From assembly GCF_900101025.1 (NCBI RefSeq), contig NZ_FMUH01000003.1:62001-126000 (forward strand): 64,000 bases of DNA. Reading direction: 5' to 3'. The position numbers and the translations under genes were made by a program. The stretch is from Klenkia marina. GTDB taxonomy: Bacteria > Actinomycetota > Actinomycetes > Mycobacteriales > Geodermatophilaceae. This document shows, piece by piece, positions 47,624 through 52,951 of the stretch. The first letter of the stretch is position 1, and the number at the start of each line of letters is the position of its first letter. The notes beneath the pieces were generated by a model. That model was given only the letters and a program-made list of their open reading frames with translations. It searched no databases and was not told the DNA's origin.

Positions 47624-48619
<996 letters not shown>

Positions 48620-48719: not shown

Positions 48720-49823
48720 ATGCCCACGACCGACCGCGCGGTCCCGCCCGCCGAGCCGGGCACCGCCCCCACCGGGCCGGACCGACGCCGGGTGCTGCTG
48801 CTCGGCGGGGTCGCGATCGCGCTGCTGGTCGCCGGTCTGTGGTGGGCCAAGTACGGGCCCTACACCGAGAAGGTGCCGGCCGTCCTGGGCAGCCACGACC
48901 TCGGCGCCTCGATCCTCACCGGCGAGGGCGAGCAGGCCCCGCCGGTGTCGCTCGCCGCTGGGTGGGACTTCACGGTCGCCTACACCGCCGCGATCTGGAA
49001 GGCACTGGTCGTCGGCCTGGTGCTGGCCGCCGCGGTGCAGGTGCTGCTGCCGGTCACCTGGCTGCAGCGGGTGCTCGGTGCCCCGGACGCCGGTGCCGCC
49101 CGCGGGGGTCTGCGCGGCGGCTTGGCCTCGGTGCCCACCCTGATGTGCTCGTGCTGCGCCGCCCCGCTCGCCGTGGGTCTGCGGCGCGCGAAGGCGGGCA
49201 CCAGCGCGGTGCTGGCGTTCTGGCTGGGCAACCCGGCGCTCAACCCGGTGGTGCTCGTCCTCTGCCTCGCCGTGCTGCCCTGGCCCTGGGCCGTGCTGCG
49301 CTTCGGGGCGGGCCTGCTCGTCGTGGTCGGCGCGGTGGCGCTCGCCGGGTGGCTGGGCCGCCGGGCGGAGGCGGACGTCGTCCCGGTCGACGTACCCGCG
49401 CCCGTGGCCGACCGGCGTCCGGTGCTCGTGCGGTTCGTGGCGACGCTGGCCGGGCTCGCCGTCCGGTTGCTGCCCGAGTACCTGGCCGTGGTGTTCGTGC
49501 TGGGCACGTTCCGCGGCGTGCTCTTCCCGGCCGACGGCGGCAGCGGGGTGGCCGCCGTCGCGGTGCTGCTGCTCCTGCTGGTCGCCGGGCTGGCGCTGCC
49601 GGTGCCCACCGGCGGCGAGGTGGCGGTCGTGTCGGCGGCGCTGGCGGCGGGGCTGGCCGCACCGTCGGCTGCGGTCCTGCTGGTGGCGCTGCCGGTGCTG
49701 AGCCTGCCCTCGCTGCTGATGGTCCGGCACGTCTTCCCGCGCCGGCTGCTCGCGGGGACGACGGCCCTGGTCGCCGTGGTGGCCCTCCTGGGTGCCGGGG
49801 TCACCGCCGTGCTGACCGTCTGA
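48720..49823 (+). CDS. ArsP/DUF318-type permease in the selenocysteine locus
   Basis: 367 residues with about nine to ten membrane helices arranged in two halves. Between them TLMCSCCAAPLAVGL gives Cys143, Cys145 and Cys146, the CxCC motif of permeases related to ArsP. GNPALNPVVLV and VPTGGEVAVVSAAL are paired re-entrant-like segments. ATG 48720 lies 7 nt after GAGGGG. It is divergent from selD and 21 bp upstream of selC, so transport of selenium or thiol-reactive metalloids is inferred from context only. Confidence 0.8.
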   Translation: MPTTDRAVPPAEPGTAPTGPDRRRVLLLGGVAIALLVAGLWWAKYGPYTEKVPAVLGSHDLGASILTGEGEQAPPVSLAAGWDFTVAYTAAIWKALVVGLVLAAAVQVLLPVTWLQRVLGAPDAGAARGGLRGGLASVPTLMCSCCAAPLAVGLRRAKAGTSAVLAFWLGNPALNPVVLVLCLAVLPWPWAVLRFGAGLLVVVGAVALAGWLGRRAEADVVPVDVPAPVADRRPVLVRFVATLAGLAVRLLPEYLAVVFVLGTFRGVLFPADGGSGVAAVAVLLLLLVAGLALPVPTGGEVAVVSAALAAGLAAPSAAVLLVALPVLSLPSLLMVRHVFPRRLLAGTTALVAVVALLGAGVTAVLTV

Positions 49824-49844: not shown

Positions 49845-49940
49845 GGAGGCGTCAGGGTGTCTGGTGACCCCCGCGGCCTCTAAAGCCGACGTGGCCCGGT
49901 AGCCGGGTCAGGCGGGTTCGATTCCCGTCCGCCTCCGCCA
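49845..49940 (+). tRNA. selC: tRNA-Sec with anticodon CTA (reads UAG)
   Basis: A 96-nt gene including encoded CCA (49938-49940). Acceptor GGAGGCG (49845-49851) pairs with CGCCTCC (49930-49936), discriminator G. The anticodon stem CGGC/GCCG (49874-49877, 49885-49888) closes the 7-nt loop CTCTAAA, giving anticodon CTA at 49880-49882 after the invariant T33. A long variable arm GGCCCGG/CCGGGTC with a 3-nt loop and a T arm with TTCGATT follow. The long arm, the encoded CCA and the position directly before selA-selB identify it as tRNA-Sec. The canonical anticodon is TCA (UGA), so this one decodes amber codons. Confidence 0.93.
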
Positions 49941-49955
49941 ACAGACCCTGGAGAG

Positions 49956-51233
49956 ATGACGACCGACCCCCGCCGCCGGGTGCCCCGCACCGACGCGCTG
50001 CTCGCCGACCCCCGGGTCGCGGCGGGCGTCGAGCGCCTCGGGCGCGAGCTGGTGAAGTCCGTGGTGGTCGCCGTCCAGCAGCGCGTGCGCGAGGGCGGGC
50101 TCGCACCCGGGGCCGCCGCCGACGCCGTGGTCGCGGCGCTGCCCGCCTCGGCGGCCAGCCTGCACCGGGTGCTGAACGCCACCGGCGTGCTCGTGCACAC
50201 CAACCTGGGCCGGGCGCCGTGGTCGCCTGCGGCGGTCGAGGCGGTCGTCGCAGCCAGCGGGACCACCGACGTCGAGCTCGACCTGGCCACGGGCCGGCGC
50301 GGGCCGCGCGGCGAGGGGGCGATCGACGCCCTGCTGGCCGCCGTCCCGGCCGCGCAGGCGGCGATCGTCGTCAACAACTGCGCGGCCGCGCTCGCCCTGG
50401 TGGCCACCTGCCTCGGCGGCGAACTGGTGGTGGCCCGTGGCGAGCTGGTCGAGATCGGGGACGGCTTCCGCATCCCCGACCTGCTGGTCTCGACCGGCGC
50501 CCGGCTGCGCGAGGTCGGGACGACGAACCGGGTCACCCGTGCCGACTACGCCGCGGCGGTGGGCCCGGACACCGGCGCGGTGCTGAAGATCCACCCCTCG
50601 AACTTCGTCGTGCGTGGCTTCACCGCAGCCGTCGAGGTGGCCGAGCTCGCGGGCATCGGCGTCCCGGTCGTGGCCGACGTCGGGTCAGGGCTGCTGCGGC
50701 CGCACCCGGCCCTGCCCGACGAGCCCGACCTGCAGACCACGCTGGCTGCCGGCGCGGACCTGGTGCTGTGCAGCGGCGACAAGCTGCTGGGCGGCCCGCA
50801 GGCCGGGTTGGTCCTGGGCCGCGCCGACCTGGTGCAGCGGCTGCGCCGGCACCCGCTCTACCGCGCGCTGCGGGTGGACAAGACGATCCTGGCCGCGCTG
50901 GAGGCCACGCTGCGCGGCCCGGTGCCCCCGGTGCACCGCATGCTCGCGACGACGACCGGCGAGCTGCGGGCCCGAGCCGAGGCGGTCGTCGCCGCGCTGG
51001 GCGGCGACGCGCACGTGGTCGAGGCGAGCGCGCGGGTCGGCGGTGGCGGGGCCCCGGAGTTCGAGCTGCCCAGCGTCGCCGTCGCGCTGCCCGCGTCGTT
51101 CGCCGAGCCGCTGCGGCACGGCGCGCCCCCGGTGGTCGGCTACCTGGCCGACGGGCGCACCCTGCTCGACCTGCGCAGCCTCGACCCCGCCGACGACGAG
51201 GCGCTGGTGGAGGCGGTCCGGGCGTGCAGGTGA
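49956..51233 (+). CDS. selA: L-seryl-tRNA(Sec) selenium transferase
   Basis: PLP enzyme converting Ser-tRNA-Sec to Sec-tRNA-Sec with selenophosphate. The PLP lysine is Lys276 in SGDKLLGGPQAG. NATGVLVHTNLGRAP near residues 72-88 and VVADVGSGLL are further family marks. 425 residues from ATG 49956, preceded by GGAG, 15 nt after the tRNA. The stop overlaps the selB start (GTGA). Confidence 0.97.
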   Translation: MTTDPRRRVPRTDALLADPRVAAGVERLGRELVKSVVVAVQQRVREGGLAPGAAADAVVAALPASAASLHRVLNATGVLVHTNLGRAPWSPAAVEAVVAASGTTDVELDLATGRRGPRGEGAIDALLAAVPAAQAAIVVNNCAAALALVATCLGGELVVARGELVEIGDGFRIPDLLVSTGARLREVGTTNRVTRADYAAAVGPDTGAVLKIHPSNFVVRGFTAAVEVAELAGIGVPVVADVGSGLLRPHPALPDEPDLQTTLAAGADLVLCSGDKLLGGPQAGLVLGRADLVQRLRRHPLYRALRVDKTILAALEATLRGPVPPVHRMLATTTGELRARAEAVVAALGGDAHVVEASARVGGGGAPEFELPSVAVALPASFAEPLRHGAPPVVGYLADGRTLLDLRSLDPADDEALVEAVRACR

Positions 51234-52951
51234 TCGCCACCGCCGGGCACGTCGACCACGGCAAGACCTCGCTGGTCACCGCGCTGACCGGCATGCAGCC
51301 CGACCGCCTCGAGGAGGAGCGCCGCCGCGGGCTGACCATCGACCTCGGCTTCGCCTGGACCACGCTCACCTCGGGCCGCACCGTCGCCGTCGTCGATGTC
51401 CCGGGGCACGAGAAGTTCGTCGGCACCATGCTCGCCGGGGTCGGCTCGGTGCCGGCGGCGCTGGTCGTGGTGGCCGCCGACGACGGCTGGTCCGCCCAGA
51501 CCGCCGAGCACGTCGCCGTCCTCGACGCCCTCGGCGTGCGGCACGGGTTGCTGGTGGTCACGAAGTCCGACCTCGCCGACCCGGCTCCGGTGCTGGCCGA
51601 CGTGCGTGAGCGGCTGGCGCAGACCTCGCTGGGCGAGGTGCCGGGGGTGGCGGCCAGCTCGCGCACCGGCGACGGCGTCCCGGCGGTGGCCGCCGCGCTG
51701 GAGGAGCTGCTCGCCGGCCTGCCCGCCCCGGACACCGTCGCGCCCGTGCGGCTGTGGGTGGACCGCGCGTTCACCATCCGCGGCGCCGGCACCGTCGTCA
51801 CCGGCACCCTGGCGGCGGGCACCGTGCGCGCCGGTGACCGGTTCGACCTCGGCGGCCGGGAGGTCGTGGTGCGGGGGCTGCAGTCGCTGGGCGAGCCGGT
51901 CGAGCAGGCCGCGGCGACCGCCCGGGTGGCGCTGAACCTGCGCGGCGTCGCGGTCGAGGAGATCTCCCGGGGCGACGCGCTGCTGACGCCCGGGGCGTTC
52001 CGGGACACCGCCGAGCTCGACGTCGTCCTCGTGCGTCCGGCCGAGCGGCTGCCCGCCGAGCTCGTGGTGCACATCGGCTCGGCGACCGTCGCGGCCAGGG
52101 TGCGGCCGCTGGACGACGCCGCGGTGCGGTTGCGGCTGGCCCACCCGCTGCCGCTGCGGGTGGGGGACCGGCTGCTGCTGCGCGACCCCGGCACCCGCAC
52201 GGTGCACGGCGCCGACGTCCGGGACGTCGACCCGCCCGAGCTGCACCGGCGGGGCGCCGCCCGGGCCCGGGCCGCCGATCTCGCCGCGGGCGGGGGAGCG
52301 CTGGCCGACCTCGCCCGCCGGCGCGTGGTGCTGCGCGCGGAGTTCGTCGCGATGGGTTGGTCGGTGCCTGCCGAGGCCACCGCGGTCGGCCGCTGGTTGC
52401 TCGCCCCCGGCCTGGCCGACGAGCTGGCCGCCCGGGTGCCCGCGGTGGTCGCCCGCTACCGGCAGCTGCGCCCGCTGGAGCCCGGCCCACCGGTCGCCGT
52501 GCTGCGCAGTGCGCTCGAGCTGCCCGACGTCGAGCTGGTCGCCGGGCTGGTCCGCGCCCCGCTGCAGCTGCGCGACGGGCGGGTGGTCGCCGAGGGCGGC
52601 CTGCCCGAACCGGTCCAGCGTGCGGTGTCGGCGGTCCTCGCCCGGCTGGCCGAGCAGCCCTTCGCCGCCCCGGACGCCGAGGAGCTGGCCGCCGCCGGGC
52701 TCGGTCCGCGCGAGCTGGCGGCCGCGGTGCGCGACGGCCAGCTGGTGCGCATCGCCGAGGGCGTCGTGCTGGCTCCCGGCGTCGAGGAGCGGGCCCGGCG
52801 GGCGCTCGCCGGCATCGCGCAGCCGTTCACGCTGAGCCAGGCGCGGCAGGCCTGGGGGACGTCGCGCCGCGTCGCCGTCCCGCTGGCCGAGTGGCTCGAC
52901 GCCCGTGGCGTCACCGAGCGCCTCCCCGACGCCACCCGCCGCCTGCGCTGA
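51230..52951 (+). CDS. selB: Selenocysteine-specific elongation factor SelB
   Basis: Delivers Sec-tRNA-Sec to the ribosome at a recoded stop with help of a SECIS RNA. G1 is GHVDHGKT (6-13), G3 DVPGHEKFVG and G4 TKSDL. EF-Tu-like domains 2-3 follow, then a C-terminal winged-helix region (about 400-573) that binds SECIS. GTG 51230 overlaps the selA stop (GTGA) and gives the normal start VIATAGHVDHGK; GTG 51224 is an alternative. In this organism it should act at UAG. Confidence 0.96.
   Translation: MIATAGHVDHGKTSLVTALTGMQPDRLEEERRRGLTIDLGFAWTTLTSGRTVAVVDVPGHEKFVGTMLAGVGSVPAALVVVAADDGWSAQTAEHVAVLDALGVRHGLLVVTKSDLADPAPVLADVRERLAQTSLGEVPGVAASSRTGDGVPAVAAALEELLAGLPAPDTVAPVRLWVDRAFTIRGAGTVVTGTLAAGTVRAGDRFDLGGREVVVRGLQSLGEPVEQAAATARVALNLRGVAVEEISRGDALLTPGAFRDTAELDVVLVRPAERLPAELVVHIGSATVAARVRPLDDAAVRLRLAHPLPLRVGDRLLLRDPGTRTVHGADVRDVDPPELHRRGAARARAADLAAGGGALADLARRRVVLRAEFVAMGWSVPAEATAVGRWLLAPGLADELAARVPAVVARYRQLRPLEPGPPVAVLRSALELPDVELVAGLVRAPLQLRDGRVVAEGGLPEPVQRAVSAVLARLAEQPFAAPDAEELAAAGLGPRELAAAVRDGQLVRIAEGVVLAPGVEERARRALAGIAQPFTLSQARQAWGTSRRVAVPLAEWLDARGVTERLPDATRRLR

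Follow-up and report, generated by a model that had tools for sequence, protein, structure and literature searches.

UAG as a predicted selenocysteine codon in Klenkia marina: a CUA tRNA-Sec locus and its relatives in Geodermatophilaceae and Coriobacteriia

In 2016 Mukai et al. reportedly described UAG, UAA and ten sense codons as codons for selenocysteine (Sec), partly from metagenomes, and are said to have given proof for Geodermatophilus and Blastococcus. Three Geodermatophilaceae genomes with a CUA tRNA-Sec are presented in passages of Santesmasses et al. 2017 (PMC5330540), where this tRNA is accepted as tRNA-Sec, Mukai et al. 2016 are credited for the formate dehydrogenases and UGSC proteins, and the AhpC of Blastococcus saxobsidens is added with a TAG Sec codon. 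The 2016 work is cited to similar effect in passages of PMC10778597, PMC5133445 and PMC8124441, the first two of which also give UGU as a Sec codon in Aeromonas salmonicida. For the other system in which UAG is read by a CUA tRNA, that of pyrrolysine, a passage of PMC7609411 gives the variable arm of tRNA-Pyl as three nucleotides.

The locus of Klenkia marina shares a CUA tRNA-Sec, a TAG in formate dehydrogenase and the bacterial family with the Geodermatophilaceae cases already described. It differs in that its genus, Klenkia, is not named in the PMC5330540 passages and in that UGSC was not matched: a search of the K. marina genome for this family returned nothing, but the search control was silent as well, and UGSC genes may still be present. 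With canonical UGA-Sec it has in common selA, selB, selC and selD, the architecture of the tRNA-Sec and the hairpin position seen in the TGA fdhA genes of its order, whereas CUA stands for UCA and TAG for TGA. The likeness to the pyrrolysine system ends with the reading of UAG by a CUA tRNA, as the K. marina tRNA has a long variable arm, lies beside sel genes and is accompanied by a conserved hairpin past the codon. As in A. salmonicida, the anticodon of tRNA-Sec has changed together with the Sec codon; there, however, the codon is a sense codon and here it is a stop codon. The UAG-Sec reading of K. marina is correct and already known for Geodermatophilaceae, in keeping with a sequence-only reading of this DNA, which had called it a known but rare change; the CUA tRNA-Sec of the family is in print in the PMC5330540 passages. 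What we add is the placing of the switch inside the family, a case in Coriobacteriia and a candidate two-codon genome, the last two of which may have been published before.

The tRNA-Sec locus of Klenkia marina

The window analysed here is a stretch of 64,000 nucleotides (contig NZ_FMUH01000003.1, positions 62,001 to 126,000), and coordinates are given within it unless another contig is named. The tRNA-Sec gene, selC, lies at 49845..49940 on the forward strand and comprises 92 nt up to base 49936, followed by GCCA. A covariance search with the Rfam model RF01852 matched it at 67.6 bits over 49845-49936 (+), covering the full model (1-91), against a gathering score of 47 bits. ARAGORN gave the same placement, 49845-49940, read the anticodon as cta and labelled the gene tRNA-Pyl. 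The anticodon CTA occupies 49880..49882 of the forward strand within the loop CTCTAAA, as read in the sequence and as placed by both programs; UCA is the usual anticodon of RF01852 tRNA-Sec, though not one demanded by the cut-off, and in K. marina it is replaced by CUA. In the Rfam alignment the variable arm is the long arm of tRNA-Sec. Rfam also marked non-standard pairs, some of them at the inner end of the acceptor stem. Since the acceptor and T-arm bases concerned are also present in UCA tRNA-Sec genes of Geodermatophilaceae, they are not tied to CUA. A degenerate pattern for CUA tRNA-Sec had 0 matches in 100 shuffles of the window.

In the genome searched (4,219,224 bases, or 4.22 Mb, in 14 contigs, 99.97% complete), selC is the only tRNA-Sec to exceed the Rfam cut-off. 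The four matches to RF01852 below the cut-off were three tRNA-Ser and one tRNA-Arg.

Immediately downstream lie selA (L-seryl-tRNA(Sec) selenium transferase, 49956..51233, forward strand; TIGR00474, 407.5 bits, cut-off 267.9) and selB (Sec-specific elongation factor, 51224..52951, forward strand; TIGR00475, 279.1 bits, cut-off 242.25), the start of selB overlapping the end of selA. SelB-wing_3 and SelB beta-barrel domains were detected in the selB product. The K. marina SelA is nearest to Klenkia records in the SelA tree, with 90% identity to one of them (L074). On the reverse strand, selD (selenide water dikinase, 47624..48619) scores 386.6 bits against TIGR00476, above the curated cut-off; its probable start is the GTG at 48619, the open frame extends to 48850 and its stop codon, read in the sequence, is TAG. 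Between selD and selC is a predicted permease of the ArsP_1 type (48720..49823, forward strand; PF03773, 62.2 bits), for which matches to NF033936 and NF040736 are weak and far under their cut-offs.

The sequence-only reading had proposed a tRNA-Sec with CTA at 49880-49882, with selA and selB directly after it and selD nearby, and had argued that it was no stray amber suppressor. The first proposal is borne out by the bases, the ARAGORN anticodon and the covariance-model check that had been advised (67.6 bits against 47), and the neighbourhood by the three TIGR models, all above curated cut-offs. A full-length tRNA-Sec match, the long variable arm and the adjacent selA, selB and selD likewise support the view that it is not a suppressor. 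A further tRNA-Sec with TCA had been named as evidence that would count against the proposal; it was sought and none was found above the cut-off in the 99.97% complete genome.

A formate dehydrogenase gene with TAG at the Sec site

The same reading had pointed to fdhA with an in-frame TAG at the Sec position and a SECIS-like hairpin behind it, and such a gene was found, outside the window. It encodes the alpha subunit of a Sec-type formate dehydrogenase (NF041513) and lies on contig C7 at 827216-830353 on the reverse strand, which refines the earlier view of the locus. Its translation through TAG reaches 1912.9 bits with NF041513, for which the cut-off is 1400. The single in-frame TAG falls at residue 223 when the ORF is read through, flanked as ENQARI-U-HSATVPGLG. 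A TGA codon at this site had been named as a contrary finding, and the sole Sec-type fdhA found in K. marina has TAG instead. Fragments matching molybdoenzymes on contig C5 were weak and had no internal stop. Other selenoprotein genes may exist in K. marina, because the search covered three families: formate dehydrogenase, UGSC and AhpD-like peroxidase. In the window, three further in-frame stops passed the read-through filter; we read them as ordinary gene ends, one of them the end of selD.

Across 112 Geodermatophilaceae genomes there were 115 fdhA matches above the curated cut-off, in 99 of the genomes, and 113 of these carry exactly one stop, a TAG, with the rest of the frame open. The two exceptions both begin past the Sec site: a fragment in G035 starting at profile position 203, and a match with two TGA in G080. 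This last genome, of the same genus, has two fdhA copies (L217 and L218), both without the segment around the Sec codon, which could be either an assembly artefact at the hairpin or a genuine loss.

The codon at the Sec site was read directly in 57 fdhA loci. It is TAG in all 31 from Geodermatophilaceae (K. marina and 30 relatives); the 26 from other families of the order have TGA (21/26) or Cys (5/26), and TAG in none. Among the matches listed for 200 genomes of the order, none outside Geodermatophilaceae has TAG as its only stop, and one, in G269, has both TGA and TAG.

The hairpin stem begins at the 15th base, counting the first base of the codon as 1, and consists of seven pairs closed by a five-base loop. 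This loop is GGTCT in 30 of the 31 TAG loci, AGTCT in the remaining one, and GGTCT in 11 of the 21 TGA genes. Among the 17 distinct TAG fdhA sequences that we used for covariation, all 119 of 119 cells are paired. Both sides have changed at three of the seven pairs, in 8 cells against a mean of 2.2 in shuffled data; as a control, sliding the partner by 1-3 columns left at most two such cells. The covarying pairs (15:33, 18:30 and 21:27) all connect third codon positions, that is, synonymous sites. Six of the seven pairs are kept in the 21 TGA genes, with 18:30 in 20 of them, and the outermost pair 15:33 is present in only 2/21. In the five Cys homologues the stem is broken, with 18:30 in 0/5 and 19:29 in 1/5. 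The folding energy of the K. marina hairpin is no better than that of shuffles (z -0.06; 80 of 200 fold equally well), and none of the four hairpins tested was significant by single-sequence energy. Because folding energy is not significant, the case for the fdhA hairpin rests on covariation, position and loss in the Cys genes, and it is by covariation in 17 sequences that a SECIS-type hairpin past the codon was recognised.

We put at about 0.96 the probability that this K. marina locus synthesises selenocysteine and supplies it to UAG codons, on the strength of what can be read in the DNA: the tRNA, the sel genes, TAG at the Sec site, the covarying hairpin and the TAG stop of selD. From these we infer charging, decoding and the Sec residue itself. 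SerRS would charge the CUA tRNA-Sec with serine, SelA would turn the Ser-tRNA into Sec-tRNA using selenophosphate from SelD, and SelB would bring the Sec-tRNA to the ribosome at a UAG closely trailed by a bacterial SECIS-type hairpin. The target identified is the fdhA of contig C7, and a UAG with no such hairpin would still lead to termination.

Three other explanations have to be weighed. The ARAGORN label would fit a pyrrolysine tRNA or a general amber suppressor, with another residue at the fdhA UAG; we give this hardly any credence, as the Rfam family is tRNA-Sec, matched at full length and with the long variable arm, selA, selB and selD are adjacent, and TGA or Cys occupies the same site in the 26 loci from the order's other families. 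It is highly improbable, too, that UAG has been reassigned to Sec throughout the genome and no longer serves as a stop. Such a change would sit well with the CUA tRNA-Sec being the only tRNA-Sec above the cut-off, but TAG was found by a rough ORF caller at 9/44 ORF ends in the window and at 141/481 in related loci, and the hairpin is conserved after the Sec UAG. The caller is noisy: selD is not among the nine TAG ends, and one that is, ORF 52456-52935, is probably spurious because it is antisense to selB. selD itself ends in TAG, so that the change is one of recoding directed by the hairpin and not reassignment of the whole codon. An fdhA cut off at UAG, or a pseudogene, with the tRNA as a relic, can be discounted as firmly, given TAG and hairpin in 31/31 Geodermatophilaceae loci examined, covariation at third codon positions and the 113 of 115 family matches that are open save for one TAG. 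We conclude in favour of hairpin-directed recoding, in which UAG, like UGA in other systems, would specify Sec only if the hairpin follows it.

The switch within Geodermatophilaceae and a case in Coriobacteriia

A tRNA-Sec was found in 108 of the 112 Geodermatophilaceae genomes (E 1e-9 or better). Seven genomes of three genus codes have the anticodon UCA: G068, G070 and G071 (g6), G072 (g7), and G074, G075 and G076 (g8). The switch therefore falls inside the family, since these genomes keep UCA. G069 and G073, whose genus codes are among g6-g8, gave no tRNA-Sec match. CUA was read in K. marina, G018, G038 (in two genes), G040, G060 and G095, and it is for these and the seven UCA genomes that anticodons were read singly. 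The pair closing the anticodon loop is U-A in all 7 UCA genes of g6-g8 and C-G in 90/90 matched CUA genes, including that of L107 (below), from which it follows that anticodon and closing pair changed together in Geodermatophilaceae.

A pattern scan for CUA tRNA-Sec in the named GTDB collection matched 108 stretches, of which 89 contain a cta tRNA of 94-98 nt. In 87 of these a Sel protein is more than 60% identical to that of K. marina; the two with no close Sel protein are L046, a 3.4-kb contig with no sel gene, and L107, from Coriobacteriia. A further 18 of the 108 were other tRNAs or chance matches, and in L103 the tRNA is at a contig end. The CUA records are named Geodermatophilus, Blastococcus, Modestobacter, Klenkia, Trujillonella, Goekera or simply Geodermatophilaceae, except for MAGs named Jatrophihabitans and Frankiales and one record named Bacillus. 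This record, "Bacillus sp. AZ43" (L023, SPQJ01000003.1), sits among Blastococcus in the SelA tree and is probably misnamed. Blastococcus endophyticus has two sel clusters (L102 and L118) about 59 kb apart on one contig (NZ_JABGCI010000003.1), both with a CUA tRNA-Sec. In a scan of viral contigs, 32 of 38 stretches have a cta tRNA of 86-94 nt according to ARAGORN, with the anticodon at position 33-34 in 31/32, compared with 36 in K. marina selC. The one with the anticodon at 36 (L136) matched an ordinary tRNA in Rfam; we take the viral cta tRNAs for probable amber suppressors of phages, not for tRNA-Sec.

The contig L107 (JAUNNF010000009.1, 66,293 bases) comes from a MAG of Coriobacteriia. Its CUA tRNA-Sec scores 64.2 bits and lies after selA and selB, and no other tRNA-Sec passes the cut-off in the 1.5 Mb of that MAG. 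Upstream is grdA, which scores 266.7 bits against Pfam GRDA when read through and has its TAG in TECFV-U-TSAGAMDLENQ. On the same contig, grdB (TIGR01918, 673.8 bits) has one TAG, in TST-U-GTCTRC. A relative, G120, has a UCA tRNA-Sec and TGA at these sites in three grdB and one grdA. Among 60 genomes, comprising this MAG and its relatives, 28 have a tRNA-Sec (E 1e-9 or better), with UCA in 27 and CUA in the MAG itself. For sequencing error to account for this, the anticodon and, in both genes, two bases would have to be wrong. Counting against the case is the weakness of the hairpin past the grdB TAG, which 164 of 200 shuffles equal in folding (z +0.84); a possible fold was seen after the grdA TAG. 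TAG serves as a stop in this MAG as well: in three stretches of the L107 contig it stands at 12/52 rough ORF ends, one of which is the Sec codon of grdB.

The UAG-Sec of this MAG thus appears from the sequence to be a second, independent switch. The fewest changes of Sec codon on a quick SelA tree number two, a count in which L243 was assigned from its TGA fdhA with no tRNA in its locus, and this fits one change in Geodermatophilaceae and one in the Coriobacteriia genome. Horizontal transfer from Geodermatophilaceae could explain why the anticodon is again CUA and its loop again closed by C-G, though the UCA relative G120 has C-G too. Transfer is nevertheless very unlikely: the Coriobacteriia SelA is 34% identical to that of K. 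marina over 457 residues, its SelB is 37% identical over 339 residues or 27% over 630, and the grdA and grdB of G120 have TGA at the same site. Moreover, SelA groups with that of G120 in the quick tree (SH-aLRT 100, with long branches flagged unsure). In the open literature searched we found no paper joining Coriobacteriia with the 2016 work or with Sec in glycine reductase; the case may nevertheless have been published, and a relative of it may already be in the tables of Mukai et al. 2016.

Taken together, the outgroup, the Cys homologues and the covariation as controls support, at the level of sequence, a Sec codon that moved in a whole bacterial clade while the hairpin signal stayed. The Coriobacteriia case points to a change that can happen more than once, there in glycine reductase and not in formate oxidation. 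In the families searched, few selenoprotein genes were found, one in K. marina and two in the Coriobacteriia MAG, and these low counts make testable the hypothesis that the codon is freed where the selenoproteome is small. For annotation, ARAGORN labels such tRNAs tRNA-Pyl, and fdhA, grdA or grdB with TAG appear truncated when read with the standard code.

A candidate double Sec code in Geodermatophilus sp. LHW52908

Geodermatophilus sp. LHW52908 is the genome G060, as its named locus L026 is contained in L210. It has a CUA tRNA-Sec with selA, selB and selD, and an fdhA with TAG (L171). On another contig (C17, 69 kb) it has a second tRNA-Sec, with anticodon UCA, whose 81.8 bits is the top tRNA-Sec score among the matches listed for Geodermatophilaceae. 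Beside it in the stretch L209 1169-2157, with its ATG 316 nt from the UCA tRNA, is a peroxidase-related gene scoring 112.6 bits against TIGR01926 (cut-off 81.8), and 51.8 bits, far under the cut-off of 175, against NF041238, a (seleno)protein family whose name includes CFYUT. The TGA of this gene falls in NRCFY-U-MESH, where 29/29 homologues compared (33-40% identical) have Cys. Some match to the gene occurs in 73 of the 112 Geodermatophilaceae genomes; these other matches are about 30-40% identical and, among those listed, have no stop. The UCA tRNA agrees with Geodermatophilaceae tRNA-Sec in the T-arm and over most of the acceptor arm and differs from it in the D, anticodon and variable arms. 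Given the shared arms, the host SelA and SelB might serve both tRNAs; no gene for a sel protein was found in the first 9 kb of C17.

We regard LHW52908 as a candidate for a double Sec code. An ancestral CUA tRNA would serve fdhA, and an imported UCA tRNA would travel with its own TGA selenoprotein gene. If true, this two-tRNA state would be a living model of an intermediate in Sec codon exchange. The wider proposal, that UGA gave way to UAG at least twice independently and that LHW52908 decodes both codons as Sec with one SelA and one SelB, is tentative, and we place it slightly below an even chance. Contamination or misassembly, or a dead gene, would account for the UCA tRNA and the TGA gene as well, and to this we attach a likewise not quite even chance. 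In its favour, the first 6 kb of C17, at a contig end, have 61-68% G+C compared with 72-82% beyond 26 kb, and nearby ORFs were read as transposases. The hairpin after the TGA is no better than shuffles (z -0.64), the other Geodermatophilaceae matches lack the stop, and a plasmid search with the TGA protein returned no match. Against it, dxs on the same contig, about 58 kb from the island, has 88% DNA identity to a genome of its own genus code and 87% to a g2 genome, and the far part of C17 therefore belongs to Geodermatophilaceae. Also against it, the TGA falls on the Cys of all the homologues compared, and the tRNA has a high score and lies close to the start of the gene.

Elsewhere on C17, a segment of about 54-98 bases (65369-65464) has counterparts in five other Geodermatophilaceae loci, with identities of 79-92%, and may be either a family-wide repeat or a conserved RNA.
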